The position numbers were made by a program, and so were the translations under genes. A stretch of 64,000 nucleotides of DNA from an uncultured Sulfurovum sp. (GTDB lineage Bacteria > Campylobacterota > Campylobacteria > Campylobacterales > Sulfurovaceae). Below the pieces are notes generated by a model. The model did no database searches. It was given only the letters and a program-made list of their open reading frames with translations, and had not been told where the DNA came from. Position 1 is the stretch's first letter. Every line of letters begins with the position of its first letter. Of this stretch, positions 483-61,466 are shown one piece after another. The stretch lies in NCBI GenBank assembly GCA_902727855.1, contig CACVAS010000147.1, positions 1-64,000 of the forward strand. Direction: 5' to 3'.

Positions 483-1694
483 TTACATTAATCTTTTGAA
501 AATTTTTCCAATAGATAGTTCAGTATTTCTTGATACACCTGCTACTTTTGCAAATTTAGACCATTTATTAATAGTCTCTTGTACCTCTTTTACGATTTTA
601 GTACCCTCTTTTATCTGATGTTTCTCTGCCAACTTTAAAAGATGAGTAATGGTAGGGTTTTTACCCTCACCCAGATACATGGTACTATGCTCACCACCTG
701 GTCCACTAGAGAATGTGATGTCATACACTGGTGAAAAGCTCCACTCTCCTTGTTCATTCATAAGAAAAGAGAAGTTTTTACTGTGATCATCACGATTATG
801 AGCAAAAAGATTAAAACAGGCCAGTCGAAACACTTTTTTTTGTTCGACCACACTTTTAGTCAGATGCAAACATAAAGTTAACAAGTCATCATAATCTAAA
901 GAGGGATATCTAAAATCACTATGAATTAACCCAGCAACCGTATGCATATGTATCCGTTCGTCTCCTACGCGATCAAAACGTTCACAAGCAAAGTAGGATC
1001 CTTTTTTATCCTGTAACAGTGTTGTTTTAGGCATATCCAACTTTGCATCTTTTGCCATCAAACTGTAGGCATATTCAACAGCTCCTACCTCTTTTCCATC
1101 AGATGAAGAGGCAAACTTTACCATCCAGTGAGTAAACCCTTCAGCCAGTATTTGCGTACCATGAATAATCTCATTGCTTGACTCATTGATCTGTATCAAA
1201 GCCTTTGGTCTAGCCCCAGCCGATGAACCACCAAGCCGTAACAACTCATCCAATAACTCTTCGCTACTACCTTTTAAAATTGCTTGTGAATGTGTTGCTA
1301 AATCATCCAAGACTATTTTATCTAAAGCAGTGCTTTTTATCTCTTCTTCAGGCTCATAACTCAAAGCCCCCATACCAAACCTGCCCACATAAGAGAGCCG
1401 TTCAAGTGGGCTGATACTCTGAGCATTAATGCCCAGTTTTCTAAGATGTCTCTCAAAAAGTAGCCGACCCCAACCATCAGGAAGAGAGTCATTAAACACT
1501 CCCCATAGCCCTTCAAATGTCATATCTTCACACTCAAATAGACCCTCTTTTAACGGAAGTTTATAAGGTGAAATTTCCAAAGAGCTTTTCAAAAATTCGC
1601 TCTCATATTCAAAAAATATCTTTCTATCCTTATAAAGCAACCTACCGACGTTTAGCTTTTCTCTATGATTTAAAAAAACTTGAAGACTATTCAT
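483..1694 (-). CDS. hipA: HipA family type II toxin kinase
   Basis: GLWGVFNDSLPDGWGRLLFERHL, FAHNRDDHSKNFSFL and YDITFS motifs; overlaps a HipB-like HTH gene. Confidence 0.85.
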   Translation of the reverse strand: MNSLQVFLNHREKLNVGRLLYKDRKIFFEYESEFLKSSLEISPYKLPLKEGLFECEDMTFEGLWGVFNDSLPDGWGRLLFERHLRKLGINAQSISPLERLSYVGRFGMGALSYEPEEEIKSTALDKIVLDDLATHSQAILKGSSEELLDELLRLGGSSAGARPKALIQINESSNEIIHGTQILAEGFTHWMVKFASSSDGKEVGAVEYAYSLMAKDAKLDMPKTTLLQDKKGSYFACERFDRVGDERIHMHTVAGLIHSDFRYPSLDYDDLLTLCLHLTKSVVEQKKVFRLACFNLFAHNRDDHSKNFSFLMNEQGEWSFSPVYDITFSSGPGGEHSTMYLGEGKNPTITHLLKLAEKHQIKEGTKIVKEVQETINKWSKFAKVAGVSRNTELSIGKIFKRLM

Positions 1695-1999
1695 TTTTTA
1701 TGCCCCCTTTTGGGAACACTTTTTTTCTCTGCTAACAGCTCATCCATACTTTTTGCTCTCTTTGGCATTGGATTAGCTATTGATTCAAAGTCATCCAAAC
1801 ACTCTAAAATAAGCGCCAACTTCAACAAAGAGTGCAGTGAAATCTGCCCACTACTCTCAAAACGTTTCACCGACCCCAAACTGACCCCAGACCTATCAGC
1901 CAAAGCCTGTTGCGTATACCCAATACTCAACCGTCGCTCTTTAAACTTCCGACTCAACTCTTGCATCATATCATGTGGTGTTTTCAAAAAGGTTAACAT
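1691..1999 (-). CDS. hipB: HipB-like XRE-family HTH antitoxin
   Basis: Helix-turn-helix RLSIGYTQQALADRSGVSLGSVKRFESSG; overlaps hipA start. Confidence 0.8.
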   Translation of the reverse strand: MLTFLKTPHDMMQELSRKFKERRLSIGYTQQALADRSGVSLGSVKRFESSGQISLHSLLKLALILECLDDFESIANPMPKRAKSMDELLAEKKSVPKRGHKK

Positions 2000-2164
2000 A
2001 TTAGCCCTTATTTGTGTTTTAAAACTTTTATAGCTAATATATTATACCATAATATCTATTGATACAGCTCATCATAAACCTAACATAATTAAATCGACGA
2101 ATAATCGTGTATATGTATAGTTATAGCACCCTTCCCCACACAAATACGTATAATTGTACATTAC

Positions 2165-2320
2165 AGCACTTTAAATAGGAGACTGTAGGTAAAGCTCTTG
2201 TCTTTGCTAAGTTTGTGATGCTAATTTGGCTCCTCAAACATTGAAGCTCTTCTTTTGAAAGTATAAACATAAAGTCCTCCTCCTTGAAACGCTCAACATG
2301 TCTTTGAACTTGTCGTTAAA
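2165..2320 (-). pseudogene. Decayed ORF6N-domain protein fragment
   Basis: Minus strand reads VERFKEEDFMFILSKEELQCLRSQISITNLAKTRALPTVSYLKC with no intact start or continuation; resembles the ORF6N core (EDFMFxLTKEExxxLRSQ). Confidence 0.5.
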
Positions 2321-2345
2321 GATACTTTGCAATACAAAAAATAAC

Positions 2346-2542
2346 AGTATGTCAAATTGAGATAATTTTATACATTAAACGACCTCAACCTTCTCCACAA
2401 CATCAAGTCAAAACCTTGTAAAACCTAGAAACTAAGTCTCTACATTGGTCGTAAGAATGTTAATATTTTTAATGCCTAAGTCTTTAAGTATTTGTGCACC
2501 CACACCAAACTCTTTGGCTTGCTCATGAGAGATAACTTTTGT
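2346..2542 (-). pseudogene. Partial duplicate of the ribBA 3' end
   Basis: Near-identical to 15799-15996 (e.g. aagtctttaagtatttgtgcaccNacaccaaactctttggcttgctcatgagagatNactttt), with substitutions and small indels that break the frame. Confidence 0.9.
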
Positions 2543-2566
2543 TTGATTAATTGAAGTTGCTATCTT

Positions 2567-5500
2567 CTTTAAATACAACTCTTCTGTTGGTTCAAGTCTC
2601 TAGTGCTTCACTCATGCTACCAACTCCCCACATTTAAATACAACTCTTGTGTTGGTTCAAGCTTATTGGTCTACTTGGTTAACTGGTTATAGAGGTTAAT
2701 TTAAATACAACTCTTGTGTTGGTTCAAGAAGTGAAGCAGAAATAGCCGAAGCTACAGGACGCAGATTTAAATACAACTCTTGTGTTGGTTCAAGAATACC
2801 CACTTAGAGGGCTTTTTGAGCCTTTTATAGATTTAAATACAACTCTTGTGTTGGTTCAAGTCTTTAAAGTCTAGTCTTCCTAAGTCTAAAGCGAATATTT
2901 AAATACAACTCTTGTGTTGGTTCAAGAGATAGAAAAAGATTTAAAATTAAGCTCAGAATCAAATTTAAATACAACTCTTGTGTTGGTTCAAGTCTCACTT
3001 GCACCATCTATAAAATTATTTATTTCCATATTTAAATACAACTCTTGTGTTGGTTCAAGCAATAGAAAGTCTATAGTATCACCTATTCCTATCACATTTA
3101 AATACAACTCTTGTGTTGGTTCAAGGAGATACAAAAGTGTGAACTTTGTTTAATATTCGATTTAAATACAACTCTTGTGTTGGTTCAAGTGATTTTTTCG
3201 CAAACTATGTATTAGAGAAAAGCACATTTAAATACAACTCTTGTGTTGGTTCAAGTACCTAAGATAGTTTTTAATCCCCATGCTTGAGGTAATTTAAATA
3301 CAACTCTTGTGTTGGTTCAAGCTAGCCTCCCTACGTCTCTGTCCACGCTTACGGCAATTTAAATACAACTCTTGTGTTGGTTCAAGTGTTTTGCTCCCAC
3401 TGCAAGAAACTTTTGTGGACATATTTAAATACAACTCTTGTGTTGGTTCAAGCATTTCAATTGTCATTGGAGTTTCAGTTACATTTGTATTTAAATACAA
3501 CTCTTGTGTTGGTTCAAGGCGTTCTTTCGTAGCGTTACTCTCTGCATGATTGACATTTAAATACAACTCTTGTGTTGGTTCAAGATGGGTATCAATGCAG
3601 GTATTCAAGTTGCTAACAAATTTAAATACAACTCTTGTGTTGGTTCAAGAATCATTTTCAAATTTTTCTCTTAATTCGTCTTCTAATTTAAATACAACTC
3701 TTGTGTTGGTTCAAGCAGTGCTATTTGCCCACATTTAAGAAGTGTACTCTCATTTAAATACAACTCTTGTGTTGGTTCAAGTAAATTGTTCTTTCGATGC
3801 TGGTAACGCTACATTAATTTAAATACAACTCTTGTGTTGGTTCAAGCGGTCTTTTTGCTATGGTTTACTTCCTTGTTTTTTCATTTAAATACAACTCTTG
3901 TGTTGGTTCAAGTTAGCTCTTTTAGCATCTCTTTACTGTAGTCTATAATTTAAATACAACTCTTGTGTTGGTTCAAGGCTGATACTGCTCATTAACAAAG
4001 ATAGCATGCCTAGATTTAAATACAACTCTTGTGTTGGTTCAAGTCTAGCCTTATTTATCTCTTCTTGTTCAGAGCTTGATTTAAATACAACTCTTGTGTT
4101 GGTTCAAGCAAGCGAAGACACCAACGCTAACGAAGTGTAGCTTAATTTAAATACAACTCTTGTGTTGGTTCAAGAGTGTCGAGTCTATAATCTCTTTATT
4201 GCTATCAAATTTAAATACAACTCTTGTGTTGGTTCAAGTAGACAAAGTACCAGTCACTGTATGTACTTACCCATTTAAATACAACTCTTGTGTTGGTTCA
4301 AGTTGCAGTTTTCTTGTGGTCTGTCTTAATGTGGATAGCATTTAAATACAACTCTTGTGTTGGTTCAAGGATTGTATCCACTCCCAATCAATCACTCTCC
4401 TCGTCATTTAAATACAACTCTTGTGTTGGTTCAAGCACCGCTTGATGTTGATGAGTCACCGCTTGATGTATTTAAATACAACTCTTGTGTTGGTTCAAGC
4501 ACCGCTTGATGTTGATGAGTCACCGCTTGATGTATTTAAATACAACTCTTGTGTTGGTTCAAGATATATGTATATTCTGTAAAACTTGCCTTTTAGTAGA
4601 TTTAAATACAACTCTTGTGTTGGTTCAAGACTAAACATAGTGGGAGTGTTATTAACATTCCCTTAATTTAAATACAACTCTTGTGTTGGTTCAAGTTCAA
4701 AAGCATTTGACCGTGCCATAGCAGAGGGCAATTTAAATACAACTCTTGTGTTGGTTCAAGTCTTTACGTGCAGAAGAACCTTTAACATTTTCGTATTTAA
4801 ATACAACTCTTGTGTTGGTTCAAGGCTTTTGCAAGATGGTATGTGGTGGTTTTGACCTATTTAAATACAACTCTTGTGTTGGTTCAAGGGTCATCTTTTA
4901 AAGACTGTGGTATTTCACTTTCTAATTTAAATACAACTCTTGTGTTGGTTCAAGGTTCCTTCACGTGTCATTCTTAAAATGTTACCAAGATTTAAATACA
5001 ACTCTTGTGTTGGTTCAAGTTTGTAGGGCTTGTGCACCCTGTACACCTAGATCCATATTTAAATACAACTCTTGTGTTGGTTCAAGCCTTGCTTGGGGAC
5101 ATAAGGATTCCCTTTATAGCTATTTAAATACAACTCTTGTGTTGGTTCAAGCAAGGTGTGAGTGTGTAGGTTACAAACTCCAAAGACATTTAAATACAAC
5201 TCTTGTGTTGGTTCAAGTGGAGAGATTCTTTAAGTGCGACAAGCTCTTTTTCATTTAAATACAACTCTTGTGTTGGTTCAAGTTTCTTTTTTTTTGACTT
5301 GCCAAACTACTCTGATATTTAAATACAACTCTTGTGTTGGTTCAAGATATAGGGTTGGTGAAGTTTTTGAATTAAGAACAGAATTTAAATACAACTCTTG
5401 TGTTGGTTCAAGTGTTGATGTCACACGTAACCCAAGACGTTCTCCTAGATTTAAATACAACTCTTGTGTTGGTTCAAGAAAGAGGGTGGTGGTTCTCAAA

Positions 5501-7630
5501 GATTTGTTTTTGAATTTAAATACAACTCTTGTGTTGGTTCAAGATTACGGTAGTATGTGCCTCAGCTGTAGAAAGTGATTTAAATACAACTCTTGTGTTG
5601 GTTCAAGCTGTTGGTTATTTACCTAATGGTTGTCTATTGATATTTAAATACAACTCTTGTGTTGGTTCAAGAATCAAAATCATAAATGTCAATTTCTAGG
5701 TTCAAGATTTAAATACAACTCTTGTGTTGGTTCAAGTTTAACTGTTTTACCTAAACCCTTGGTAATACAATCATTTAAATACAACTCTTGTGTTGGTTCA
5801 AGAAGGTTTAATCCCTATATTCTTAACAATTACGCTATTTAAATACAACTCTTGTGTTGGTTCAAGACTATACAATCTATAGGAAGATTGATGAGATTGT
5901 AATTTAAATACAACTCTTGTGTTGGTTCAAGCATTCGAGATGGATTTAACTTTAACCCATTACCGAATTTAAATACAACTCTTGTGTTGGTTCAAGGTTA
6001 AAAATAAAATACTAAATGAATTTGAAACACTATTTAAATACAACTCTTGTGTTGGTTCAAGCTACTGCTATAATTGGTGTATAAGTTGGTTGAGAGACAT
6101 TTAAATACAACTCTTGTGTTGGTTCAAGTAATATCCGTAATCAGACTGTAGTACCGCTGTCCAATTTAAATACAACTCTTGTGTTGGTTCAAGTAAGCAA
6201 TCTATTTTTACAGATGGAATACCCACGTAATTTAAATACAACTCTTGTGTTGGTTCAAGCTTACATTGTTTGACCCCAAGTTTAGAAATCTTATATTTAA
6301 ATACAACTCTTGTGTTGGTTCAAGAAGCTGGGTGAACGTGCTAAGGCGATTATATTATCATTTAAATACAACTCTTGTGTTGGTTCAAGAAAGAAGCACT
6401 ACACACTTCCTTAACATAATCGTGAATTTAAATACAACTCTTGTGTTGGTTCAAGGGATAAAACACCAATCCATTTCAATAACTCTATGATATTTAAATA
6501 CAACTCTTGTGTTGGTTCAAGGAAAAATCACTGGAACAATCAACAAAACTTAAAATAATTTAAATACAACTCTTGTGTTGGTTCAAGTAAATGCAAATAC
6601 AGAAGCAATAAACCTGTCTAAATTTAAATACAACTCTTGTGTTGGTTCAAGACACCTAGAGACGCAATAGGATATATATATTACAGATTTAAATACAACT
6701 CTTGTGTTGGTTCAAGATACCTAAATTAATTATGTCTAAAACAGTAACATGATTTAAATACAACTCTTGTGTTGGTTCAAGGTGGTGCAAATGAGCCTAT
6801 GAATGATATTGAATGGTAATTTAAATACAACTCTTGTGTTGGTTCAAGGACAACGGAGCTATTCATAGTGATTTGATAAATAATAATTTAAATACAACTC
6901 TTGTGTTGGTTCAAGTCATTCTAGATGGATTTAACTTTAATCCATTGCCAAATTTAAATACAACTCTTGTGTTGGTTCAAGTAAACTGCACCGATGCTAC
7001 CAAGGACTGCTGTTTGATTTAAATACAACTCTTGTGTTGGTTCAAGTTGTATATTTAAAGATAATGATGTTCTATTATGTGATTTAAATACAACTCTTGT
7101 GTTGGTTCAAGTAGAGGGTAGATTAATAGGTGAGTCACTATATAAATTTAAATACAACTCTTGTGTTGGTTCAAGCCTAACTCTAACATGATACTTTTCA
7201 CTTACTTGTGGATTTAAATACAACTCTTGTGTTGGTTCAAGCATTTTAAATGTGATGAATCGTGGTATGGTCATACTATTTAAATACAACTCTTGTGTTG
7301 GTTCAAGACTCTATTAAAACGAGACAAACATACAGTAACTATATTTAAATACAACTCTTGTGTTGGTTCAAGACATTAAGACAGACCACAAAAAAACTGC
7401 AATAGAATTTAAATACAACTCTTGTGTTGGTTCAAGTCCACCGATCACCGATTGTATGCGTGCCGCTTCTATTTAAATACAACTCTTGTGTTGGTTCAAG
7501 TGAATTTAAGCATAACAGAGCAGTATCAACAAGATAATTTAAATACAACTCTTGTGTTGGTTCAAGTTGCTATTGCTACAGGTACGAGTCCAAAGGGTGA
7601 ATTTAAATACAACTCTTGTGTTGGTTCAAG
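2567..7630 (-). CRISPR. CRISPR array, ~78 x 30-bp repeats with ~77 spacers (34-37 bp)
   Basis: Repeat ATTTAAATACAACTCTTGTGTTGGTTCAAG (sense probably CTTGAACCAACACAAGAGTTGTATTTAAAT). The only degenerate copy I saw is at the leader-distal end, 2567-2596. Manual count. Confidence 0.98.
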
Positions 7631-7804
7631 TAAGACTATATAGGCATCTTCATATTTTAAAAAATGAAGAAACGCCCATATTATCGTAAACTTACATAAA
7701 TTTTCCAATCAAATTATTATTAACAATAAAATATTAAAGAACCTATGTAACATTATGATTATAGCGTAAACACACATGTAATTTTACCAAGTTAGGTTGG
7801 AAAA
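7631..7804 (-). promoter_or_regulatory. Probable CRISPR leader
   Basis: AT-rich non-coding segment between cas2 and the array; the decayed repeat is at the opposite end. Confidence 0.7.
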
Positions 7805-8113
7805 TTATAAAAAAAGTGATTCACTATCCATTTTATTACTTCCTAATATCTCTTCATGAAAAACTGATTTATTTTGAAGTTTCACTATTGATACAAAATC
7901 TAACTTCTCGTCTATGTTCTTTTCTATCTCATCACGAAATCTAATAAGATTTGCAGGAGTAATATTCCCTCTAAAAACTGATTTTTGATGGTGCTTAAAA
8001 TATTTTTTGCAAATCTTGAAAACCTTACTCACACGGTATTTACCAGCATCACTCTCTATATCTGCTATATCATAAAAAACAAAAGCATAATTATAATTAT
8101 AGTTTCTACTCAA
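7805..8113 (-). CDS. cas2: CRISPR-associated endonuclease Cas2
   Basis: ~102 aa, YNYAFVFYDIADIESDAGKYRVSKVFKICKKYFKHHQKSVFRG; next to cas1 and the array. Confidence 0.9.
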   Translation of the reverse strand: MSRNYNYNYAFVFYDIADIESDAGKYRVSKVFKICKKYFKHHQKSVFRGNITPANLIRFRDEIEKNIDEKLDFVSIVKLQNKSVFHEEILGSNKMDSESLFL

Positions 8114-9114
8114 TGCTTATCCTTTAATTTAAATGGCACAAATTCTTTATCTTCTATAAGAAATTTTACAAGTTTATATGCATCATATTTTATGGCACTC
8201 TTATAAGTCGTTTTTCGTTTTAATCGTGGATGCATAAATGGCTCATTAATTCGATTTTCAAAAGCTTCTATAAACACTTTTTTACCTGTCTCATTGAGTA
8301 GTGCATAATTAAGATTTTTATCAAAATGTTTACTTACTTGTAGTTGCTTTTTATTCACTAGATCAAAGATGGTCTTAAATACAATAATTGGCTTGAAAAC
8401 TTCACACATATCTAAGCTTAATGAAAATCTCCCCTCTCTTGGAGAGTGTAAAAAGCTTATAGATTGATTCAGATGTGTATGGTAAATTGCAGATATCGTT
8501 TTCGTATAGAGCAAAGTATTACCAAAGCTAACTAGTGCATTGATAGGATTATCCGGTGGTCGCTTTACACGTTTATTCATCACAAAATCTATAGGTAAAA
8601 AATGCTGAAAACTATCATAAAATCTATTCCATATTTGACCTTCTATGTAGAAAATCTGTTTAATGTCTGGTTCTTTTTCTAAAAATACTGATACATCCTT
8701 TTTAAGCCAATCCAAAAATGGCTTTAGTTCCTTTTTCCCATGTCGATAGTAGTGATACAAAACCTCATGCACATTATCGGCTATCCCCTGCACTATTGAT
8801 CTAGCTATAATAAGCCGTTTGTCAATATATGCTTGTGATTGCCGAATGGTCAAATCTCCACTGATGAGTTGTTCTTTAGGGTAAAAACTTCCTGTGTAGT
8901 TATTATGATAGTTAAAAAAATGAACACATATCCCTGCTTTAGCGATAAAGTCTAAAAATTTGGTATTGAAACTCACTTCATTCATACAGTAGAGTTCACG
9001 TGTATCTTCTATCGGCAAATAAAAATTTCCTTTTTCATTTCTAAATGCAATGGAATTGTCTTTTCTCTTCAGTTCACCCATGCTAAATATATACCGTGTA
9101 TGCTCTTTTGCCAT
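8110..9114 (-). CDS. cas1: CRISPR-associated integrase Cas1 (type I-B-like)
   Basis: YIFSMGELKRKDNSIAFRNEKGNFYLPIED, NPINALVSFGNTLLYT, LHSPREGRFSLSLDMCEVFKP. Confidence 0.95.
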   Translation of the reverse strand: MAKEHTRYIFSMGELKRKDNSIAFRNEKGNFYLPIEDTRELYCMNEVSFNTKFLDFIAKAGICVHFFNYHNNYTGSFYPKEQLISGDLTIRQSQAYIDKRLIIARSIVQGIADNVHEVLYHYYRHGKKELKPFLDWLKKDVSVFLEKEPDIKQIFYIEGQIWNRFYDSFQHFLPIDFVMNKRVKRPPDNPINALVSFGNTLLYTKTISAIYHTHLNQSISFLHSPREGRFSLSLDMCEVFKPIIVFKTIFDLVNKKQLQVSKHFDKNLNYALLNETGKKVFIEAFENRINEPFMHPRLKRKTTYKSAIKYDAYKLVKFLIEDKEFVPFKLKDKH

Positions 9115-9123
9115 CTTTTCCCC

Positions 9124-9621
9124 TTATATAAAACAGTACTCATAATAAGCACATTTTTTACACTTATTATCAAAAACAGCTCCTGGTGGTTTTTCTAAAT
9201 TAATCAATATATCAATCTTAGCCAATACCGCCAAAAGCTCTTGCTCATTCCCCTTATCAAGCTCCACATAATGAACCTTTTTACTCTGTTTTCTCTTCTC
9301 TAAAAACTCTACTTTTCCCTTTTTAAGTACACCTTTTTGCTTTAGCTTATACAAGTACAAAAGCACCTGCCACTTCACAGCCTCGGGGTCAGAGTCACTC
9401 TTTTTTATCTCAACCAAATACTCTTTGGTCAGCTTGTCTATTTTGATGTTATCAATAGACACCTCACCCTTTTTACTCTTTTTCTCTTGAAGTTCATGTA
9501 ACACTTTACCTATACGTACATCTTCAGAGTTGCCTTCTAGGTTTATTCGGTTGGCGTGTAGCCAACATTGGGTTTTACAGTGGAAGTAGTAGTTTATTAG
9601 GGTTCCTGTGATTTGGTTCAT
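9124..9621 (-). CDS. cas4: CRISPR-associated exonuclease Cas4
   Basis: CKTQCWLHANRINLE, RIGKVLHE and C-terminal CKKCAYYEYC cysteine cluster. Confidence 0.95.
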   Translation of the reverse strand: MNQITGTLINYYFHCKTQCWLHANRINLEGNSEDVRIGKVLHELQEKKSKKGEVSIDNIKIDKLTKEYLVEIKKSDSDPEAVKWQVLLYLYKLKQKGVLKKGKVEFLEKRKQSKKVHYVELDKGNEQELLAVLAKIDILINLEKPPGAVFDNKCKKCAYYEYCFI

Positions 9622-11792
9622 AAATATCCATTCCTCTGTTCAATATTCTCAACCTCATCATTTGTTAAACCAATGTCACTACTATAGTGTAAAGCAACAA
9701 CTGGAAATACTCGTTTATAACCATAAGCTTCAAAAAAAGTTATTTTATCTTTGTGCATTCTATACCGATTTTTACTAATCGATACAAAAAGTTTTTCAGC
9801 CTCTAAATATTTTTTATTTTCTATAAATTGTCTAAATTCATCTTCTAGCTCAATCGGTAAAACTTCAATCCCATCAAACTGAGAAAAAAACCCTTCTTCA
9901 CTCTCTTCATAAATATTAAAAGGATATAAATTGTCTAAATATCCTCTAAATTGTTCTCTCAAATCATCGAAATTAAGTTCAAAAGGTTCATATATTTTAT
10001 CTAATAAACTTTGTACCATATCTTCATTGACAACAATATTTTCTATTTTTTCTAACTCTAGTAAAGTATTTTCAATTAAGTTCTCTTCTTTATAGATTAG
10101 TTTATGTACATCTTCAATAACTGATATAACAAAACAGTTAGCTTCATCATTCTCTTTCATCACTCTTTTTTCTTCTCTATTCACACGCCCAAACCGTTGT
10201 AACAAAGCATCCAATGGAGCAGGTTCTGTCACTATCAAATCATAATCAATATCTAAACTTACCTCAATAGCTTGTGTACCTACTAAAAGCTGAGGTTTAT
10301 TATCTGATTGAACCTCTTTCTCTTTTTTGGTTCTATCTCTTGCATTAAATCCACTATGTAAAAGCGTTTTAGTATCACATTCAATGGCATCATACATCTC
10401 TTGTGCTTTGGCAACTGTATTACAAACAACTAAAACAGTTTTAGAGTCATCAATCTTTGATTGAATAAAACTCTTCTGCTTATCTATAGCCAAATCAAGC
10501 AATTTTATTTTGTGTCTTTTAATACCATTAATCAATTTCTTATCTGGTCTAATCTCTTTTTTAATGTTCAAAGTATTTTTTATATGCTCTTGCATAAAAG
10601 TAGGCATAGTCGCTGTCATAATAAAAACTTTAACCTCTAACTTTTCTATAAGCCACTCTATAAAAAATAGTATTCTTCTAAAAAGTTCTCTATCATAAAT
10701 ATGAATCTCATCAAAAATTAGATAACTTCCTGCAAGTTCGGTAAAACCTTTTTCAAATCCTTTAACACCAAAAGCCCATTTCAATATCTGAAATGGGGTA
10801 ACCACTTTAAAAGGTTTGATAATTTTTTTATTAATATCAATTAAGTCCTTTAAACTCTGTCCTTCTTTTCGCTCATAATATTCATCTATAAAAAATTTAG
10901 ATTTTCCATGTAAAAGTCCAACTAAAGACTCATCACCAAAACCTTTACCTTTATTAGAAACTCGTTTTGTCATAGCATTAATGGAAGCTGTAAAAGGTAA
11001 GATATAAAAAGCTCTACCCTGTCTAATACTTAATTGTGTTTGTAGCCACCCTAAGCTACTTTCTGTTTTTCCTTGTCCTGTAGGAGCAATCAAAAGAGCA
11101 TTTTCTTTTGTATTCCAAGAGGCTTTTTGATGATGATATGGTTTATATTTGGTATTATACAAAAAATTAAAATTATCTTGTTCAATAATTGGGATTTTTT
11201 GTATACCTGCTGATGCATTGTGGTCACAAATTGAAAGAGAGGCAGATAAGAATATGTTTTGAAATTTTTCAAGTTCAGATATTTTTCTTCTACTCCTTTT
11301 TGAAGTCCATTTTTTTACAACACTTTTTAAATCATTGATTTTTAACTCTCTTATTTCAATATTTTGCGTTAATAAAAACTTGTTTATCCAAAAAAAATCT
11401 AACTCTTCAAACTCTTTGCTTATCCATCTATCTTGATTATACTTTTCATTATTATCATATTCATTAAACAACTCTTTTAACTTATCAAAATTTTTGTGAT
11501 GCGATAAGACAGCATTAATTATCATCTCATTATCTGTATAGTTTTGGGCTACTATTGCACTCAAAACTTCATGTCTAAATCTATATTTTTGATTATTAGA
11601 CATCAAATTTTGAAACCCTTTTGTACTCTTACCTATATCATGAAAGAGTATAGAGAATTTTAAATCATTCCAAAATTCACTACTCTTAAAAAACTTTTCT
11701 AGTGTGGGAAAAGCCTTTTTAAACTCCTCTGCAACATCCAATAAATCTTGTGTATGTTGCTCTAAACTCAACCCATCAGACTTGGCTAACAT
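9618..11792 (-). CDS. cas3: CRISPR-associated helicase/nuclease Cas3 with N-terminal HD domain
   Basis: HD motif LFHDIGKSTKGFQ, Walker A APTGQGKTE, DEIH box, QRFGRVNR. Confidence 0.95.
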   Translation of the reverse strand: MLAKSDGLSLEQHTQDLLDVAEEFKKAFPTLEKFFKSSEFWNDLKFSILFHDIGKSTKGFQNLMSNNQKYRFRHEVLSAIVAQNYTDNEMIINAVLSHHKNFDKLKELFNEYDNNEKYNQDRWISKEFEELDFFWINKFLLTQNIEIRELKINDLKSVVKKWTSKRSRRKISELEKFQNIFLSASLSICDHNASAGIQKIPIIEQDNFNFLYNTKYKPYHHQKASWNTKENALLIAPTGQGKTESSLGWLQTQLSIRQGRAFYILPFTASINAMTKRVSNKGKGFGDESLVGLLHGKSKFFIDEYYERKEGQSLKDLIDINKKIIKPFKVVTPFQILKWAFGVKGFEKGFTELAGSYLIFDEIHIYDRELFRRILFFIEWLIEKLEVKVFIMTATMPTFMQEHIKNTLNIKKEIRPDKKLINGIKRHKIKLLDLAIDKQKSFIQSKIDDSKTVLVVCNTVAKAQEMYDAIECDTKTLLHSGFNARDRTKKEKEVQSDNKPQLLVGTQAIEVSLDIDYDLIVTEPAPLDALLQRFGRVNREEKRVMKENDEANCFVISVIEDVHKLIYKEENLIENTLLELEKIENIVVNEDMVQSLLDKIYEPFELNFDDLREQFRGYLDNLYPFNIYEESEEGFFSQFDGIEVLPIELEDEFRQFIENKKYLEAEKLFVSISKNRYRMHKDKITFFEAYGYKRVFPVVALHYSSDIGLTNDEVENIEQRNGYL

Positions 11793-12517
11793 AAACTTCT
11801 CAATATAATAGAACTATGTAACTCCTCATCAAAATAAGCATTGCTCAATATCTCATTATCAAATTTTGTAAACTTCCAGTTTTTCATATCAAATAGTTCT
11901 ATTTTATTTCTAGGTTGTTCTAAAAAACTACCCAAACCATCATTAATTAAAAATGGTTGTACTCCTCTTGGTTCTCTAACAATATTACTGTTATCAAAAT
12001 ACTTTGGCATAGCATAGATTTCACCTGAACTTTTAAACTGATTAAATGGAACTATTGTACCGTTTAAAACAGCCTTATCTGACTTTACAACTTTTATCTC
12101 TTTAACCTCTAATACTCTTGCTAAATCTCCACTTCGACCTAAAAGAAGTTGAAAAATAGGAGACTTAAAAGCATTGGCTATTTTTTCATCTTCAAAATAT
12201 AGAGTTAAATAACAATCAAATAGTATCTCTCTTTTAAATGTTGGGTCTTGAACAACATTTTTATTGTTAACAGAATTTCCTTTTTTTTCAAACTTATAAA
12301 TCGTTTCCAAATCTACATATGATGATTGGTATCTAAAAATATAAGAAAATCTAAAATCAACCAACTTATCATCTCCTGTAGCAGATGCAACCATACCTGC
12401 TATAGTTGTATAAGGAATCGCTTTGATACTAAGTTGATTTGAACTTATAAAATTTGGATACCTAAAACTAGCTGTTTGAGCTGTGATAAGTACGCGATAT
12501 AATTTCATATTACACAA
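11786..12517 (-). CDS. cas5: Cascade subunit Cas5
   Basis: MKLYRVLITAQTASFRYPNFISSNQLSIKAIPYTTIAGMVASATGD; Cas5 N-terminal signature and locus context. Confidence 0.85.
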   Translation of the reverse strand: MCNMKLYRVLITAQTASFRYPNFISSNQLSIKAIPYTTIAGMVASATGDDKLVDFRFSYIFRYQSSYVDLETIYKFEKKGNSVNNKNVVQDPTFKREILFDCYLTLYFEDEKIANAFKSPIFQLLLGRSGDLARVLEVKEIKVVKSDKAVLNGTIVPFNQFKSSGEIYAMPKYFDNSNIVREPRGVQPFLINDGLGSFLEQPRNKIELFDMKNWKFTKFDNEILSNAYFDEELHSSIILRSLC

Positions 12518-13632
12518 CGACCGTATCTAGTATTTTAGTAAAATTATCAATTGTTTTATTGATACTATCTGTATGAATCTCAATATCTGATATTTCACTT
12601 TTTAAAATATTTAAACTTACATCATCCATAAATCCACTCATTTTACCAATATAAATATCACTTCTTAAATACTCTTTATTGTCTTCAATAGCCTCTTTTA
12701 AAGCATCTATAGATAAAGTAGCTCGTCCATTCTCTTCTACTGCAATATTATCAAAAATATTATTACCACCTTTTAAAACTGCCAAAATAATAAAATCAGG
12801 CTTTACACTCACATAATTTGTTGTTCTTTTTGCTCCACCTGCAATGGTTTTCAGTGCTAAAATAGTCTCTTTAGCTCTATCTCTTCTTATACTATTTTCT
12901 AATCTTGCTCTTTTCACATTTGGATTTATCAAATCATCTACTTCGCTACCACTCTCTAAAACTTTATCGTAAGTAGTGTCCGTTACATTTTTAAATCCAG
13001 AACGATTGACTTTTGTAAATGTTCCTACTTGGTCTAAATCTAATGAAAACATTCCTTTTAAGACTGTAGAATAAGATTGTTTTTCATAAAGTACTGAATC
13101 ACCATCTTGCCTTGTCATTGATGAACGCTCATTTAGTTCTTTTTTATTAATTGATGTCACAGATGTTAAAATAGAATTTTTAAGTGGACTAATCCTAGTA
13201 ACAGTAATATCAACCATTTTAGGTTTATCTTTATTTTTACTCTTTCCCCCAACTAAAACAACATTTCCCTCTTCGTCTTTAAGTTCATCCTTACTGGCTC
13301 TCATATATCCAAAAATATCATCATCTGCATACTCTAAAGGATTTGCATCTGTATAAGCCACATTTTTACTGCTCACTTTTGTTACAGGACTTAATGACCA
13401 ACCATTTAATCCCAAAGATTCTCTCCACCAATATCTCCACGCCTGACCTGAAACAACACTATGTGTTCTTCCATTTTTAGTTACTTTTTTAACAGCACTT
13501 GTATTATCCATACCTTGTGTATTAGTAGCATCACTTCCCCAATTATTTAAACTTGCACCATCAACATCAATTAAGATTGAACTATGTACAAAATAATTTT
13601 TAACCTCATCATTTTTAACTATCTCTTCAAAA

Positions 13633-15746
<2,114 letters not shown>

Positions 15747-15796
15747 TCAGTATATGTTTTATACTGAAGTATATCCTATAAAGTTAGAAGAAAGTA

Positions 15797-15823
15797 AAAG
15801 TATGTCAAATTGACATACTTTTT
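15797..15823. terminator. Bidirectional terminator-like hairpin between cas operon and ribBA
   Basis: aaaagtatgtcaaattgacatactttt palindrome with A/T tracts. Confidence 0.6.
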
Positions 15824-15828
15824 ATACA

Positions 15829-16863
15829 TTAAACGACTTCAACCTTCTCTACAACATCAAGTCCAAAACCTGCAAGACCTACAAACTCAGTCTCTACATT
15901 GGTTGTAAGAAGGTTAATGTTTTTAATGCCCAAGTCTTTAAGTATTTGTGCACCTACACCAAACTCTTTGGCTTGCTCATGAGAGATGACTTTTGTGTCA
16001 AGAAATATGAGGGTACCACCGTTTAGTTTTAGGTAGTCTATGGAGTTATTGAGGGCAGAAAAACGTTTGTCATCTAGTACTAAACCTATGTCTGTCCCAA
16101 TGTTATGAAACTTTACGTTGGCAGTCTCATGAGACTTGTAAAACTGTATGACGGTATGTGTTCTGTCTAGGTGGTCGGTGTAGGTTATTTTTTCTACTTT
16201 TGTCCCTCTTAGTTCTGTCTCTTCTGTGTTGACACGCTTCACAAGTTGTTCATTTGCCAAACGGTACTCTACAATGTCTGAAATGTAGACAATACACAAG
16301 TCATGTTTCTTAGCAAATGGCTCTAGGTCATCCATACGTGCCATGGTTCCATCATCTTTAATGATTTCACAAATCACTGCCGCTGGTGCTAAGCCTGCGA
16401 GTTTACAAAGGTCTACAGACCCTTCTGTGTGTCCTGTACGTACAAGTACACCACCATCTTTGGCAATCAGTGGAAAGATATGCCCTGGACGTACAAAGTC
16501 TGAAGCCACAGTCTGAGGTGAAGCAAGTTTAGAGATACAATCATCTCTCTCTGCAGAGGAGATACCTGTTGTCGCAATGGTAGAGTCTATAGACACGGTA
16601 AATGCCGTCTCATGGTTAGAAACATTGTTACTCACCATAGGCAGAAGATCTAGCTTGGTTGCTATCTCTTTTGTCACAGGAGTACAAATGAGTCCTCTAG
16701 CCTCTTTTGCCATAAAGTTTACCATGTCTGGTGTAGAGAAAGTTGCAGCATAGACAAGGTCACCTTCATTCTCTCTATCTTCATCGTCCATCATGATGAC
16801 CATACGTCCTCGTTTAGTCTCTTCTATCGCTTTTTCTACTCTTTTTATTGCATCCATTGACAT
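15829..16863 (-). CDS. ribBA: 3,4-dihydroxy-2-butanone-4-phosphate synthase with GCHII-like C-terminal domain
   Basis: MMDDEDRENEGDLVYAA, RPGHIFPL, RTGHTEGSVDLC; C-terminal domain lacks a GCHII Zn-cysteine cluster. Confidence 0.92.
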   Translation of the reverse strand: MSMDAIKRVEKAIEETKRGRMVIMMDDEDRENEGDLVYAATFSTPDMVNFMAKEARGLICTPVTKEIATKLDLLPMVSNNVSNHETAFTVSIDSTIATTGISSAERDDCISKLASPQTVASDFVRPGHIFPLIAKDGGVLVRTGHTEGSVDLCKLAGLAPAAVICEIIKDDGTMARMDDLEPFAKKHDLCIVYISDIVEYRLANEQLVKRVNTEETELRGTKVEKITYTDHLDRTHTVIQFYKSHETANVKFHNIGTDIGLVLDDKRFSALNNSIDYLKLNGGTLIFLDTKVISHEQAKEFGVGAQILKDLGIKNINLLTTNVETEFVGLAGFGLDVVEKVEVV

Positions 16864-17015
16864 ATAATATCTCCACGTATATTGTTAATGGAAGTATTAT
16901 ACCTATAGAGACTTCATCATAAGAAAGATTTTTAATTTTTTTTAAAAATCCTCTTGACATGTATCGGTTATGGTGCTATAATTCCGTCCACATATGCAAT
17001 TAAGCACATGTATGT

Positions 17016-17090
17016 TGGGGTATCGCCAAGCGGTAAGGCACTAGTTTTTGGTACTGGTATTCGGGGGTTCGAATCCCTCTACCCCATCCA
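17016..17090 (+). tRNA. tRNA-Gln (TTG)
   Basis: tggggtatcgccaagcggtaaggcactagtttttggtactggtattcgggggttcgaatccctctaccccatcca; loop TTTTGGT gives anticodon TTG. Confidence 0.95.
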
Positions 17091-17181
17091 TGAAAATTTG
17101 TTTTTTTAAACTAGGTTTACTTTAAGTTTAAAAAGATAAACTTCCACTCCAAATAAGTTTAAACGCTTATTAAAATCCTGT

Positions 17182-17258
<77 letters not shown>

Positions 17259-17620
17259 ATTCTTAATTAAATCAACTTATACTTACAATTTACTAAACTT
17301 TAATCCTATTTATAAATCTATGACTATGCTGTAAATTTTCAATATTTTACAAATACATATTTCTCCACGTTTTACACACAATATCTATGTATACTACTCC
17401 TTGAAAGATATGAAAGTACTCCTTCCCTATTTGTGCTTTCTATCTTTCAAGATAATTTTTCACTAATACTCTTTTCCTTCCCTATAAAAAGAGTGTTTAT
17501 TTGTAATTATTTATTTTTTATTGGAAAATTATCTATCTATTCATTTATACCCCACTCAAACTATAGAATTTTAAGATGAAGTTACAGTATACTTCTACAT
17601 ATATTTAAGGAGAGTAAACA

Positions 17621-18838
17621 ATGAAAAAAACCCTTATCATTGGTGCTGGTGGTGTTGGTAATGTGGTTGCCTTTAAATGTGCTATGAACGTGCAAACGTT
17701 TGGAAACATTACCCTTGCTAGCCGCACAGTAAGTAAGTGTGATACCATAGCTACAAATGTCAAAGAAAAAACAGGCGTTACACTAAGTACAGCTACGGTA
17801 GATGCTGATTCAGTGAGTGAGCTTGTCGAACTCATAAATACAACACAAGCAGATATTGTTATCAATGTAGCACTTCCATACCAAGACCTCACCATTATGG
17901 ATGCATGTACACAAACAGGTGTTGACTACCTCGATACAGCAAACTACGAACACCCAGACACAGCAAAATTTGAGTACAAAGAGCAGTGGGCCAAAGACCA
18001 ACAATTTAAAGATGCCAATATTATGGCACTTCTTGGTAGTGGTTTTGACCCAGGGGTCACCAATGTCTTTTGTGCCTACGCTCAAAAACACTATTTTGAT
18101 GAAATACACACCATAGACATTCTGGACTGTAACGCAGGCGACCACGGCTACCCATTTGCCACCAACTTTAACCCAGAGATAAACCTACGTGAAGTCTCTG
18201 CGAAAGGACGGTATTGGGAAAATGGCTCTTGGATAGAGACAGACCCAATGGAGATAAAACAAGTATGGGACTACCCAGAAGTTGGTCCAAAAGATAGTTA
18301 CTTACTCTATCATGAAGAGATGGAAAGTTTAATCAAACATATTAAAGGTCTGAAACGTATTAGATTCTTTATGACCTTTGGAGAGTCTTACCTTACACAC
18401 ATGAAATGTCTAGAAAATGTAGGCATGTTAGGCATAAAGTCCGTAGAGCACAAAGGACAAAAAATCATCCCTATGGAATTCCTAGCCACCCTACTACCAG
18501 ACCCAGCAAGCCTTGGCCCACGCACCAAAGGAAAAACCAACATTGGTATTTTTGCAAAAGGCGTCAAAGACGGTGTAGAAAAAACAGTATACATCTACCA
18601 AATCACAGACCACGAAAGCTGTTATGCAGAAGTACTCAGCCAAGGTGTCAGCTACACCACAGGCGTACCAGCCATGATAGGAGCAAAACTCATGCTAGAA
18701 GGCACATGGCAAGCCAAAGGTGTATACAACATGGAACAATTTAACCCAGACCCATTTATGGATGAACTTATGACTCAAGGTCTACCTTGGAAAGTAATGG
18801 AGTTAGATGCCAACGATACAAGACGCGTAGACACATAA
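17621..18838 (+). CDS. Saccharopine dehydrogenase family; probable carboxynorspermidine synthase/dehydrogenase
   Basis: MKKTLIIGAGGVGNVVAFKCAMN Rossmann motif, GSGFDPGVTNVFCAYA. Confidence 0.85.
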   Translation: MKKTLIIGAGGVGNVVAFKCAMNVQTFGNITLASRTVSKCDTIATNVKEKTGVTLSTATVDADSVSELVELINTTQADIVINVALPYQDLTIMDACTQTGVDYLDTANYEHPDTAKFEYKEQWAKDQQFKDANIMALLGSGFDPGVTNVFCAYAQKHYFDEIHTIDILDCNAGDHGYPFATNFNPEINLREVSAKGRYWENGSWIETDPMEIKQVWDYPEVGPKDSYLLYHEEMESLIKHIKGLKRIRFFMTFGESYLTHMKCLENVGMLGIKSVEHKGQKIIPMEFLATLLPDPASLGPRTKGKTNIGIFAKGVKDGVEKTVYIYQITDHESCYAEVLSQGVSYTTGVPAMIGAKLMLEGTWQAKGVYNMEQFNPDPFMDELMTQGLPWKVMELDANDTRRVDT

Positions 18839-19527
18839 TGTTTCAAGGCTTCCCAAAAAAAGGCTTAGACTTTCTAAGTCAGATTGTTATAAATAACTCT
18901 AAGGAGTGGCTAGATGACAATAAAGATACGTATGAAAAATATATTGTAAATCCCAATAAGTTGTATGTAGCAGACATGGGTGAGATGTTGCAGATACTTG
19001 TACCTACCATACATGCCAACCCTAAGATAAACAAATCACTTTTTCGTATTTATAGAGATGCAAGATTCCATAGGCTAGACCCCATCAAAGAGCGTATTGG
19101 CATTATCTTTTGGCAGGGTGATACTCACCGTATGCAAAGTAGCTCTTTTTACATGCATTATGACCCTTTTGAAGTCTTTGTAGCCACGGGAATACGTAAT
19201 TTTAAAGCACCACTTCTTGAGACCTATAGAGAATACATTAAAAATGATATACGTAGAGCAGAGTTACACCAAATATTTGAAACCCTAAAAAACAAAGGCT
19301 ATAAAATAGGAGAACCCAAGTTTAAAAGATTCCCCAGAGGGTTTGAAGACTTTGAAGATAAAGAACATGCCTACTTGGCTAAATATGGTTCTATTTTTGC
19401 CTACACTACCTTTACACCAGATGCAGACTTTCACTCATCTAACATCATAGGCAAAAATTTTAAAATCTATAAAGATATGTTGGACTTGCATCAGTGGGTC
19501 TATACACTAACATTGCATGCAGACTAA
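18838..19527 (+). CDS. DUF2461 family protein
   Basis: MFQGFPKKGLDFLSQIVINNSKEWLDDNKDTYEKYI...RIYRDARFHRLDPIKERIG. Confidence 0.75.
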   Translation: MFQGFPKKGLDFLSQIVINNSKEWLDDNKDTYEKYIVNPNKLYVADMGEMLQILVPTIHANPKINKSLFRIYRDARFHRLDPIKERIGIIFWQGDTHRMQSSSFYMHYDPFEVFVATGIRNFKAPLLETYREYIKNDIRRAELHQIFETLKNKGYKIGEPKFKRFPRGFEDFEDKEHAYLAKYGSIFAYTTFTPDADFHSSNIIGKNFKIYKDMLDLHQWVYTLTLHAD

Positions 19528-20225
19528 AATCTCTTCATCAAGTCATTCACTACGTTTACAGTACCTTGTACCAGTAGTGGGTTTTTATCTGCATCTAGCC
19601 ACTGGATGATCTCTTTCATTTCATCTTCACGCATCACTGTACAGCCTGCTGTAGGTACTTTTTTGATGTGTATGAAAATGCATGAACCAGCACCCTTTAT
19701 GGCACCAGGTTCGTCTATGTGGTTATGGTTCACCACTATGCCGTACTTGTAGTAGTCTTTAGCAAATCGCATATGCTCAAAACTTTTGTAGTCTTTAGTG
19801 ACCTTGTTACTGTCTACTATTTTGTTGTAAAGTTTTGAGTTTGTATCGTCTACGCAGTGGTCTGTACTTTTGTAAACCTCATAAGGGTAGTCTACTGTAA
19901 AAGGGAAGTACCCAAAAGCTTGCTTTAAAGAAAAAATACCCGCAGGCGCTTTACCATCTCCCTCTTTTTTAATGATGTTGGCATCTTTAGGTGTTGTGTG
20001 CAGACCAACACCCCACCCTAGTCCATTTCTACCTAGTTTTATGTCTATAGCTTTACCCACTTTTTGCCACTTGTCTCTCTTCTCATAACGCTGTAGTATG
20101 CCCTTAGGGGTAGACCAGTTTTGTGTAATAACGACTATGAGCTGTTGGGTGTTGATGGTTTGTGCTTGAAGCATCAAAAAAGTTGAAGCTACGCCAAGTA
20201 ATATTTTTTTCATGTGTATTGTCAT
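19524..20225 (-). CDS. L,D-transpeptidase family periplasmic protein
   Basis: Signal peptide; GDGKAPAGIFSLKQAFGY and CIFIHIKKVPTAGCTVM catalytic motif. Confidence 0.85.
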   Translation of the reverse strand: MTIHMKKILLGVASTFLMLQAQTINTQQLIVVITQNWSTPKGILQRYEKRDKWQKVGKAIDIKLGRNGLGWGVGLHTTPKDANIIKKEGDGKAPAGIFSLKQAFGYFPFTVDYPYEVYKSTDHCVDDTNSKLYNKIVDSNKVTKDYKSFEHMRFAKDYYKYGIVVNHNHIDEPGAIKGAGSCIFIHIKKVPTAGCTVMREDEMKEIIQWLDADKNPLLVQGTVNVVNDLMKRF

Positions 20226-20258
20226 CTTTCTAATATAATATATTTTAAAGGTAGAGTC

Positions 20259-20396
20259 ATGGAATATGGAATCATCTCAATAGCTATACCACTGCTTACT
20301 ATCATTTTAGCTATTATAACCAAAGATGTTATTGTCTCTCTTTTAGGGGGTATTTTTGTTGTTCTTTCGGTTTTAGATGATTTCTCTTTTCATTAA
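20259..20396 (+). pseudogene. Truncated duplicate of the start of the downstream nhaC-like gene
   Basis: MEYGIISIAIPLLTIILAIITKDVIVSLLGGIFV identical to 20975 ORF, then diverges and stops. Confidence 0.9.
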
Positions 20397-20452
20397 ATTT
20401 GACATAAAATATGTTATACTAAATATAATTTAAAACATATAAGGATGTTCAC

Positions 20453-20647
20453 ATGTCTCTTAATGATATATACAATCTACCAGCATCTGAAAAACTTCAT
20501 CTTATTGAACAATTGTGGGATAGACTAAATGATTCTGACATCGTCTCACCTGATTGGCACAAAGAAGTTTTAGATGACAGAAAAAAACGTTATGACAATG
20601 GTCAAATAAATACTATGTCATTAGAAGAATTTAAAAAACAACGATAG
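20453..20647 (+). CDS. Addiction-module antitoxin (Unstab_antitox-like)
   Basis: MSLNDIYNLPASEKLHLIEQLWDRLNDSD...W; directly upstream of a RelE/ParE-like toxin. Confidence 0.85.
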   Translation: MSLNDIYNLPASEKLHLIEQLWDRLNDSDIVSPDWHKEVLDDRKKRYDNGQINTMSLEEFKKQR

Positions 20648-20959
20648 ATGAAGACTTATAGTTTGTATCTAACCGAAGATGCACAAATAGATATATATAA
20701 TTCTGAAAAATTTTACGAAAACAAAAGTCCAAATCTAGGTACCTATTTTTATGACAGTATCATATCAGATTTAGATGCTCTCAAACATTATGCAGGTATA
20801 CATGCTATACATTTTGGTTTATATCGTATGGTCACTAAGCGTTTTCCTTATGTTATTTATTATAATATTGAAGATAATACTGTTATTGTACATGCTATTT
20901 TACACACAAGGATGGATATATCATCCCATACGAAAAAGATTAATAAAAAGTCGAAATAA
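20648..20959 (+). CDS. RelE/ParE family toxin
   Basis: LYLTEDAQIDIYNSEKFYENKSPNLGTYFYDSI...RMVTKRFPYVIYYNIEDNTVIVHAILHTRMD. Confidence 0.85.
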   Translation: MKTYSLYLTEDAQIDIYNSEKFYENKSPNLGTYFYDSIISDLDALKHYAGIHAIHFGLYRMVTKRFPYVIYYNIEDNTVIVHAILHTRMDISSHTKKINKKSK

Positions 20960-20974
20960 ATACAAGGTAGAGTC

Positions 20975-22354
20975 ATGGAATATGGAATCATCTCAATCGC
21001 TATACCACTGCTTACTATCATTTTAGCTATTATAACCAAAGATGTTATTGTCTCTCTTTTAGGGGGTATTTTTGTTGGTCTTTTGGTGTTAAATGACTTC
21101 TCTTTTTTAGACACGATTATCGCCTTTTTTGATGGCATAGTCGCACAATTCGCACAAGGTTGGATAACCAAAACCCTACTCTTTATGTTGTTTGTGGGTG
21201 CCATTATACGTATACTCTCTGACGCTGGCGCAGTTGAGCGTTTTGTAGCCTACCTGTCCTTAAAGTCTGAACGCATTGACTCACCTAAAGGTGCTATGCT
21301 TTTGGCGTACGTTATAGGTGTAGTCATTTTTATAGAATCTAGCATTACCTCAATGGTGGCAGCTACAGTTGCTAAGCCACTTTGTGACAAAAACAATGTC
21401 AGTAGAGAAAAACTCGCTTACATTTGTGACTCTACTTCTGCACCGGTATGTACTATTGTGCCACTCAATGGCTGGGGTGCTCTACTTCTAGGGCTTATTG
21501 TCGCTGCCATTGATGCGCATGTCATTGGTGGAGATGCTGTCTCTTTACTTTTAGAAGCCATTATTTTTAACTTTTATGCGTGGGTAACCCTTCTTATTGT
21601 CTTACTCGTCATTCTCTTTAACATTAACATAGGGCCTATGAAACACGCTAAGGCAAAAAAATATGAAAACAAACATGCAAATACTGATGTTAAACCCTCT
21701 CTTTGGCATATGGTGTTACCCATTGTCGTAGTTGTTGGTATGGTACCTTTAGCACTACTCTACACAGGTAAGGGAGATATCTTTGCAGGTTCTGGCTCCA
21801 CTTCTGTGTACTACGCTACTATTGTGACGCTCATTTTTATGTACTTCTATTTTGTACCTACAAAAAACATAAGCCATAAGAACTACTTTAAATCACTCTA
21901 CAACGGTATGGGTGAAATGCTACCAGTTACACTCATATTGCTTTTTGCCATTTACATAGGTGATGTCATAGGTGACCTTGGTACTGCAAAGTTCATTGCA
22001 CATCTACTCGATGGTAACATCTCCCCAATGCTCATACCTTTACTTGTATTTTTAGTCTCTTCGATGACTGCATTTGCTACAGGTACAAGCTGGGGGACGT
22101 TTAGTATTATGCTTCCTATTGCTCTGGCATTGGGTGCTACTATGGATTTACATATCCCTCTACTTATTGCAGCTGTTATGAGTGGTGGTGTTTTTGGTGA
22201 TCATACTTCACCTATATCTGATACGACCATTATTAGTTCTATGGCAGCAGGCTGTGACCACATAGAACATGTACGTACACAAATACCTTATGCGCTTATA
22301 GGTGGTGTCTTAGCTGCGGTTGCATTTTTAGTGTCAGGATGGGCAATGGTATGA
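20975..22354 (+). CDS. Na+/H+ antiporter NhaC family
   Basis: Polytopic; GTSWGTFSIMLPIALALG, GGVFGDHTSPISDTTIISS. Confidence 0.88.
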   Translation: MEYGIISIAIPLLTIILAIITKDVIVSLLGGIFVGLLVLNDFSFLDTIIAFFDGIVAQFAQGWITKTLLFMLFVGAIIRILSDAGAVERFVAYLSLKSERIDSPKGAMLLAYVIGVVIFIESSITSMVAATVAKPLCDKNNVSREKLAYICDSTSAPVCTIVPLNGWGALLLGLIVAAIDAHVIGGDAVSLLLEAIIFNFYAWVTLLIVLLVILFNINIGPMKHAKAKKYENKHANTDVKPSLWHMVLPIVVVVGMVPLALLYTGKGDIFAGSGSTSVYYATIVTLIFMYFYFVPTKNISHKNYFKSLYNGMGEMLPVTLILLFAIYIGDVIGDLGTAKFIAHLLDGNISPMLIPLLVFLVSSMTAFATGTSWGTFSIMLPIALALGATMDLHIPLLIAAVMSGGVFGDHTSPISDTTIISSMAAGCDHIEHVRTQIPYALIGGVLAAVAFLVSGWAMV

Positions 22355-22881
22355 CAAATATACTCAAATTTTTCTTTGGTATTGTGCTTGCACAAGTAGC
22401 TACCTATGCACTTTTTGTACTCTCACCTACTGACTCTCTTAGTAGCGTTTCTGGTATGTTACGTTTTGTGGTACCTTTACTGTTTATAGCCTTAGCACTT
22501 GCCTTTTGGTTTGCTTCTATTGCCTCGCACCATAGTAAAAACAGCTTTGTCAAAGAACGTGAAACATTACGCAAAGAGACACAACGCGACAAAGAACGCA
22601 TCATCAAAGAAGCACAACGCAATATTACTGTAGAGAGTACAAAAACCCATGCTAAAGCAAACTTTAAAGTCGGTGCAGCCTTTGCAGGTGCCTTGGGTGT
22701 TGGAGCACTTTTTGTATTTGCTCAAATGGTAACAGCTGGGCTACTTGCCCTTGCCGCCACAGGAGGTGCTATGGGTGGGTACTACATACGTTCTAAAAAA
22801 GCACAAAAAGAGAACCTTCTTTCTATAGACGCACCCCGAGATGCCCTTGAAGATGTAGAAGTCATAGAGCACAAGTCATAA
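22339..22881 (+). CDS. Hypothetical membrane protein
   Basis: Several TM segments; overlaps antiporter end. Confidence 0.6.
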   Translation: MGNGMTNILKFFFGIVLAQVATYALFVLSPTDSLSSVSGMLRFVVPLLFIALALAFWFASIASHHSKNSFVKERETLRKETQRDKERIIKEAQRNITVESTKTHAKANFKVGAAFAGALGVGALFVFAQMVTAGLLALAATGGAMGGYYIRSKKAQKENLLSIDAPRDALEDVEVIEHKS

Positions 22882-22943
22882 GCTTATAGCCCTATAATCT
22901 CTTATTGGATATAATCTTCTCAATTTATAAAAAGAGAAAAACA

Positions 22944-24188: not shown

Positions 24189-24240
24189 AAGAAGTTTTTG
24201 AGACCCTTTTACAGAGTCTCAAAAGTATGAAGTGTTAAGA

Positions 24241-24981: not shown

Positions 24982-25135
24982 GTTTGAGCCTTTTATTTTA
25001 TTTTTTTATTTAGCTATTCTAATACCCTTTCATTATACAAAGTTATTCTTAAAAAAATATATGACATATTTACCAATAATTTGATATACTCTACTTCAAA
25101 AACCCTTTATATCATGTAAAGAATTAAGGCACATA

Positions 25136-26611: not shown

Positions 26612-26620
26612 AAGGTATGA

Positions 26621-59717: not shown

Positions 59718-59801
59718 TTTATTACAATTTATAGATGAAAATAACTACTATGCTACAAAAGTTTTGTTATCATCTTATAGTTTAAATTTAGGAGATTCCT
59801 T

Positions 59802-60971: not shown

Positions 60972-61081
60972 AGGATGTGAACTGGGCAAAGCTCATGCTT
61001 CACTACACTGACGTTGTGTCCTCTTCAGCATTTGAGGGCTCTCGTAACTAGTTACTCTTGGAAGTATCTAGTATATTTTAA

Positions 61082-61466
<385 letters not shown>

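Follow-up and report, generated by a model that had tools for sequence, protein, structure and literature searches.

Separate capture of homologous coding protospacers as the probable origin of two related spacers in a type I-B CRISPR array of an uncultured Sulfurovum sp.

Two related spacers in one array

Spacers 52 and 67 of a CRISPR array in an uncultured Sulfurovum sp. are, taking the evidence as a whole, best explained as two separate captures from homologous protein-coding protospacers, and we consider this origin very probable. The array lies in a window of 64,000 nucleotides, the whole stretch of DNA that was analysed. Spacers are numbered from left to right, low numbers being taken as old and high numbers as new.

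2567..7630, minus strand: CRISPR array, 78 repeats of 30 nt and 77 spacers of 34–37 nt
5932..5966, minus strand: spacer 52, the older of the pair, 35 nt; antisense frame xTC-GNGLKLNPSRM
6916..6951, minus strand: spacer 67, the newer of the pair, 36 nt; antisense frame xTT-GNGLKLNPSRM

A preliminary description had given the coordinates and sequences of the two spacers and aligned them over 35 nt with four mismatches, all of which proved exact on recheck. In an all-against-all comparison of the 77 spacers the pair has a local score of 27, which is exceeded only by an exact duplicate (spacers 29 and 30; score 34) and by the pair 27/74 (score 28). The remaining spacer pairs score 13 or less. As the best scores in 20 shuffled arrays were 12–15, the likeness of spacers 52 and 67 is not due to chance. 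Their right (leader-proximal, PAM-side) ends coincide and spacer 67 is longer by 1 nt at the left; counted from the PAM side, the differences fall at positions 2, 5, 11 and 30. The two spacers are 15 units apart, with 14 spacers between them, and their neighbours are unrelated.

The array and its cas genes

The repeat reads ATTTAAATACAACTCTTGTGTTGGTTCAAG on the plus strand and is identical in 77 of the 78 copies, the sole altered copy being the left-terminal repeat (2567–2596; two changes). With the altered repeat leftmost and cas2 to the right of the array, the leader is placed, from position, at the array's right end, with transcription presumed to run leftwards and guides to come from the minus strand. 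The PAMs fall to the right of the mapped spacers, supporting a right-side leader. Together with the adjoining cas genes, the array is, judged by gene content, a complete type I-B system.

7631..7804, minus strand: presumed leader (from its position), intergenic between the array and cas2
7805..8113, minus strand: cas2 (TIGR01573, PF09827)
8110..9114, minus strand: cas1, type I-B (TIGR03641, 395 bits against a cutoff of 304)
9124..9621, minus strand: cas4 (PF01930)
9618..11792, minus strand: cas3, HD and helicase (TIGR01587/TIGR01596)
11786..12517, minus strand: cas5b, I-B/TNEAP (TIGR01895)
12510..13667, minus strand: cas7, Cst2/DevR, I-B/TNEAP (TIGR02585)
13633..15021, minus strand: cas8b (PADLOC Cas8b, 4.8e-15)
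15012..15737, minus strand: cas6 (TIGR01877)

The old end of the array is adjoined by a HipA-like toxin gene (483–1999; PF07804, PF13657) and a small gene upstream of it.

Known targets and the PAM

With all spacers joined as the query, a contig of the same assembly, C47 (136,045 bp), was found to carry matches to three spacers; a fourth spacer matches a gene in a genome of the same genus.

5413..5448, minus strand: spacer 44, 36/36 match to C47 31751–31786, PAM 5'-TCA
6782..6818, minus strand: spacer 65, 34/37 match to C47 51652–51688, PAM 5'-TCA
7437..7470, minus strand: spacer 75, 34/34 match to C47 10749–10782, flank AAA and not TCA
3126..3159, minus strand: spacer 9, 31/34 match to a gene in a contig of a same-genus genome (G020:C53)

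One of the three differences between spacer 65 and C47 is non-silent (N/D). The other spacers have at least ten mismatches in their best matches to C47, the same as reversed controls. In the orientation of the guide the 5' flank is thus TCA at two of the three C47 protospacers (background frequency of TCA 2%); the spacer 9 match, which has three mismatches, is flanked by CCT. For type I-B systems of Campylobacter, TCA and TCN have been published as PAMs (PMC8482600). The present system is like the Campylobacter one in its type I-B cas operon and in these two TCA flanks, and unlike it in the AAA next to the exact match of spacer 75. This AAA is a possible PAM escape.

The two ends of C47 share an overlap of 127 nt that falls within a 45-nt tandem repeat, so that the contig is probably circular and complete. 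Its genes encode a secretin, a T2SSE ATPase, a lytic transglycosylase, ParA, ParB, an integrase and a C5 methylase, as well as a TrwB-like coupling protein (a weak match) and an 841-aa protein that we call VirB4-like on inspection and on its plasmid homologues rather than on a Pfam match. Among plasmids, relatives of the latter occur solely in Campylobacter, Caminibacter and Helicobacter (24–28% identity). We take C47 to be a Campylobacterota conjugative plasmid; it may reside either in the host of the array or in a neighbour binned with it (9% contamination). C47 also encodes, at 72625–76434, a 1269-aa helicase with eleven copies of the helicase-associated (HA, PF03457) domain.

The target gene of spacer 9 (element at 1318–3009 of the analysed stretch of G020:C53) follows a secretin-like gene, and its protein has a motif of HUH type (HFHVLVH); by inspection, and not by family search, the target looks like a filamentous, inovirus-like phage. 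Because C47 and this element are both matched by spacers, the array probably preserves a record of plasmids as well as of phages. Spacers 62 and 17 gave partial matches only against the relatives (9–11 mismatches), and BLAST of the array gave chance scores only against phages, and repeats and chance matches only against plasmids.

Other related spacers

4303..4339, minus strand: spacer 27, overlapping the reverse complement of spacer 74
7373..7406, minus strand: spacer 74, opposite-strand partner of spacer 27
4436..4469, minus strand: spacer 29, exactly duplicated in tandem as spacer 30; an internal control for duplication
4500..4533, minus strand: spacer 30, exact copy of spacer 29

The pair 27/74, which had been missed in the preliminary description, lies on opposite strands, overlaps by 30 nt with one mismatch and is 47 units apart. 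Two stop-free frames, AIHIKTDHKKTAI and SIAVFLWSVLMWI, leave its single difference silent; in a third such frame it would give a Leu/Phe change. As its members lie on opposite strands, the pair did not arise by simple duplication: the system of this array has re-sampled a second target. The duplicated spacer 29/30 (4436–4533) holds CACCGCTTGATG twice within itself.

A related type I-B array is found on plasmid pSulSP of Sulfurospirillum sp. 'SP' (14673–18374 of the analysed stretch; 56 spacers found; repeat with three differences). Its spacers 13 and 28 (35 and 36 nt) have 16 nt in common at the leader-proximal end and read INWLDKKIGEI and INWLDRKIKEI in one frame, the changes being largely conservative. 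The same array carries an exact copy of a three-spacer block (40–42 = 53–55).

Reading frame of the target and search for the protospacer

The preliminary description had read spacers 52 and 67 as IRDGFNFNPLP and ILDGFNFNPLP. That frame is open and, as claimed, three of its four differences are silent and one is Arg/Leu. The antisense frame fits better: both spacers read GNGLKLNPSRM and all four differences are silent (GGT/GGC, GGG/GGA, CGA/AGA and the C/T third base of the codon xTC/xTT). A TCA PAM would make the codon preceding GGT either ATC or ATT, Ile in both spacers. In a simulation with four random changes, some open frame was wholly silent in 0.9% of trials (a chance of ∼0.009). The silence of four changes is modest evidence. 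Since all four differences are silent in the antisense frame, with Ile in both spacers given a TCA PAM, the target gene is most likely read on the strand opposite to that first proposed, as [I]GNGLKLNPSRM. The frame first proposed has one radical change (Arg/Leu) against zero in the antisense frame, and we think it unlikely to be the coding one. Its only database matches, two exact hits of the DGFNFNPLP pattern in IMG/VR, are chance ones, lying antisense to an unrelated SH3/endolysin-like phage gene on GC-rich contigs with flanks unlike the spacers.

The 52/67 protospacer was not found in IMG/VR (exact and protein-level patterns), in the phage or plasmid collections searched, in GTDB contigs (one match, by chance) or in its own genome and 398 relatives with three mismatches allowed. 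The GTDB match to GNGLKLNPSRM, in Candidatus Methanoperedens, reads NGLKFNPSSM in a helicase/nuclease gene and is a product of the loose pattern, and the three-mismatch matches in two relatives (G292 and G056) do not keep the peptide. The pattern DHKKTAI[ED] of the pair 27/74 has three matches in IMG/VR, which were rejected as being without IHIKT upstream. On C47, neither pair has a DNA or peptide match above shuffled controls, with one weak exception for 27/74; a WSVLxWIA string for this pair (score 42 against 31–36) lies in a short frame antisense to the gene at 58971–61097 and was rejected. For 52/67 the coding gene and the adjoining PAM are thus putative, and the invader may be either a plasmid or a phage.

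Separate captures, duplication and paralogous sources

Spacers taken twice from one site should be alike beyond chance yet non-identical, should share the PAM-side end while the distal end varies, and should differ in ways compatible with purifying selection on the protein. Spacers 52 and 67 show each of these features, the last with zero non-silent changes in the antisense frame. Matching protospacers in related invaders, which would also be expected, were not found in the collections searched, a negative that does not amount to a refutation. Two cuts made separately from one PAM would be expected to leave coincident right ends and left ends off by 1 nt, as seen here. The claim of the preliminary description that the pair records two independent acquisitions from homologous coding DNA is borne out by this shared end and length difference, and further by the silent-only differences in one open frame, the undecayed repeats and the opposite-strand pair 27/74.

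The contrary case that had been named, duplication of one spacer within the array followed by mutation, invokes a process that does occur, as seen in the tandem copy 29/30 and in the block copy on pSulSP. These known duplicates are, however, exact and were moved as whole units, whereas spacers 52 and 67 stand far apart among unrelated neighbours. With 77 of the 78 repeats unchanged, spacers here do not decay at a rate of four changes per 35 nt, as one of this pair would have had to do; the changes would nonetheless have been silent in one frame, and an indel would have been required precisely at the spacer edge. We regard this origin as very improbable indeed. A source in two paralogous gene copies within one invader, and not in two diverging invaders, is less remote but still improbable. 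Gene families are frequent in large plasmids and phages, so that such a source is conceivable, and nothing in the array separates paralogues from orthologues. The 14 acquisitions that intervene make capture in a single encounter unlikely, and the restriction to silent changes suggests that one function was strongly constrained, each being weak evidence either way. Separate captures from homologous genes of diverging invaders therefore remain our preferred reading.

Proposed history

Spacer 52 would have been captured first, from one invader lineage, and some 14 acquisitions later a relative in which the gene had accumulated silent changes would have entered the cell. Two of the silent changes fall in the PAM-adjacent seed and would be expected to weaken guide 52; Cas1–Cas2–Cas4 would then have cut the new spacer, 67, at the same PAM and 1 nt longer distally. 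Priming by guide 52 is plausible from the type I-F data discussed below. In the Haloferax I-B system pairing is required at positions 1–10 except 6 (PMC4390866). Should the same rule apply to the present system, guide 52 would fail to clear an invader of the spacer 67 type, and re-capture would be favoured. The analysis thus suggests re-vaccination against a relative that had escaped spacer 52. In the arms-race record proposed by the preliminary description, the repeated sampling of a homologous coding site stands; escape from spacer 52 with subsequent re-vaccination, acquisition that was primed rather than naive, and the identity of the invader are what we infer. A wider reading, in which the array would be a datable record of repeated encounters with a Campylobacterota conjugative plasmid family, silent escape in the seed of a conserved gene would lead to re-capture at the same PAM, and same-edge pairs would bring to light invader lineages not otherwise seen, with their coding frames, even where the databases contain no protospacer, is speculative and rather doubtful.

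Relation to known systems

Silent variation under spacers has been described for viruses of Yellowstone mats, in a viral lysozyme gene (Heidelberg et al., 2009; PMC2612747). As there, the homologous coding protospacers of 52/67 differ mainly by silent or conservative changes, a pattern that was read as host–virus co-evolution. In that study variants in a virome were compared with a spacer, whereas here the two variants are two spacers of one array with the same PAM, and the site is known from the spacers, the target not being found in the collections searched. The pattern of 52/67 is thus of a known kind, and the pair is a good new example of it, a clean but ordinary arms-race trace.

In type I-F, targets that have escaped give rise to new spacers taken close to the site of recognition and on the other strand (Staals et al., 2016; PMC5059440). 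The pair 27/74 fits this other-strand geometry of primed, or interference-driven, acquisition; a difference is that the members of the pairs here are 15 (52/67) and 47 (27/74) units apart and are not adjacent captures.

The pair 52/67 provides, from one genome and without a time series, evidence that the same gene site was captured twice as the invader drifted, and such pairs hold information about a target that is itself unseen: its PAM side, its reading frame and the constraint acting on it. Two pairs here and one on pSulSP suggest that they can be found in long type I-B arrays. The second pair and the plasmid target add to the interest of 52/67, C47 being in the same assembly and hence a concrete system for testing escape and re-capture.

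Comparison with the cas locus of pSulSP

The type I-B locus of the window (8110–15737) and that of pSulSP (18539–26747 of the analysed stretch) have near-identical repeats (3 of 30 nt differ), and likeness at the level of identity is 76% for Cas1 and 62% for Cas6. BLASTP gave no meaningful similarity between the two loci for Cas8, Cas7 and Cas5, and Cas3 is 25% identical in the helicase part only. The I-B models matched also differ, being TNEAP-like in the window and HMARI-like on pSulSP. On these protein comparisons the two loci look like the outcome of an effector-module swap in which the repeat, Cas6 and the adaptation genes were kept.
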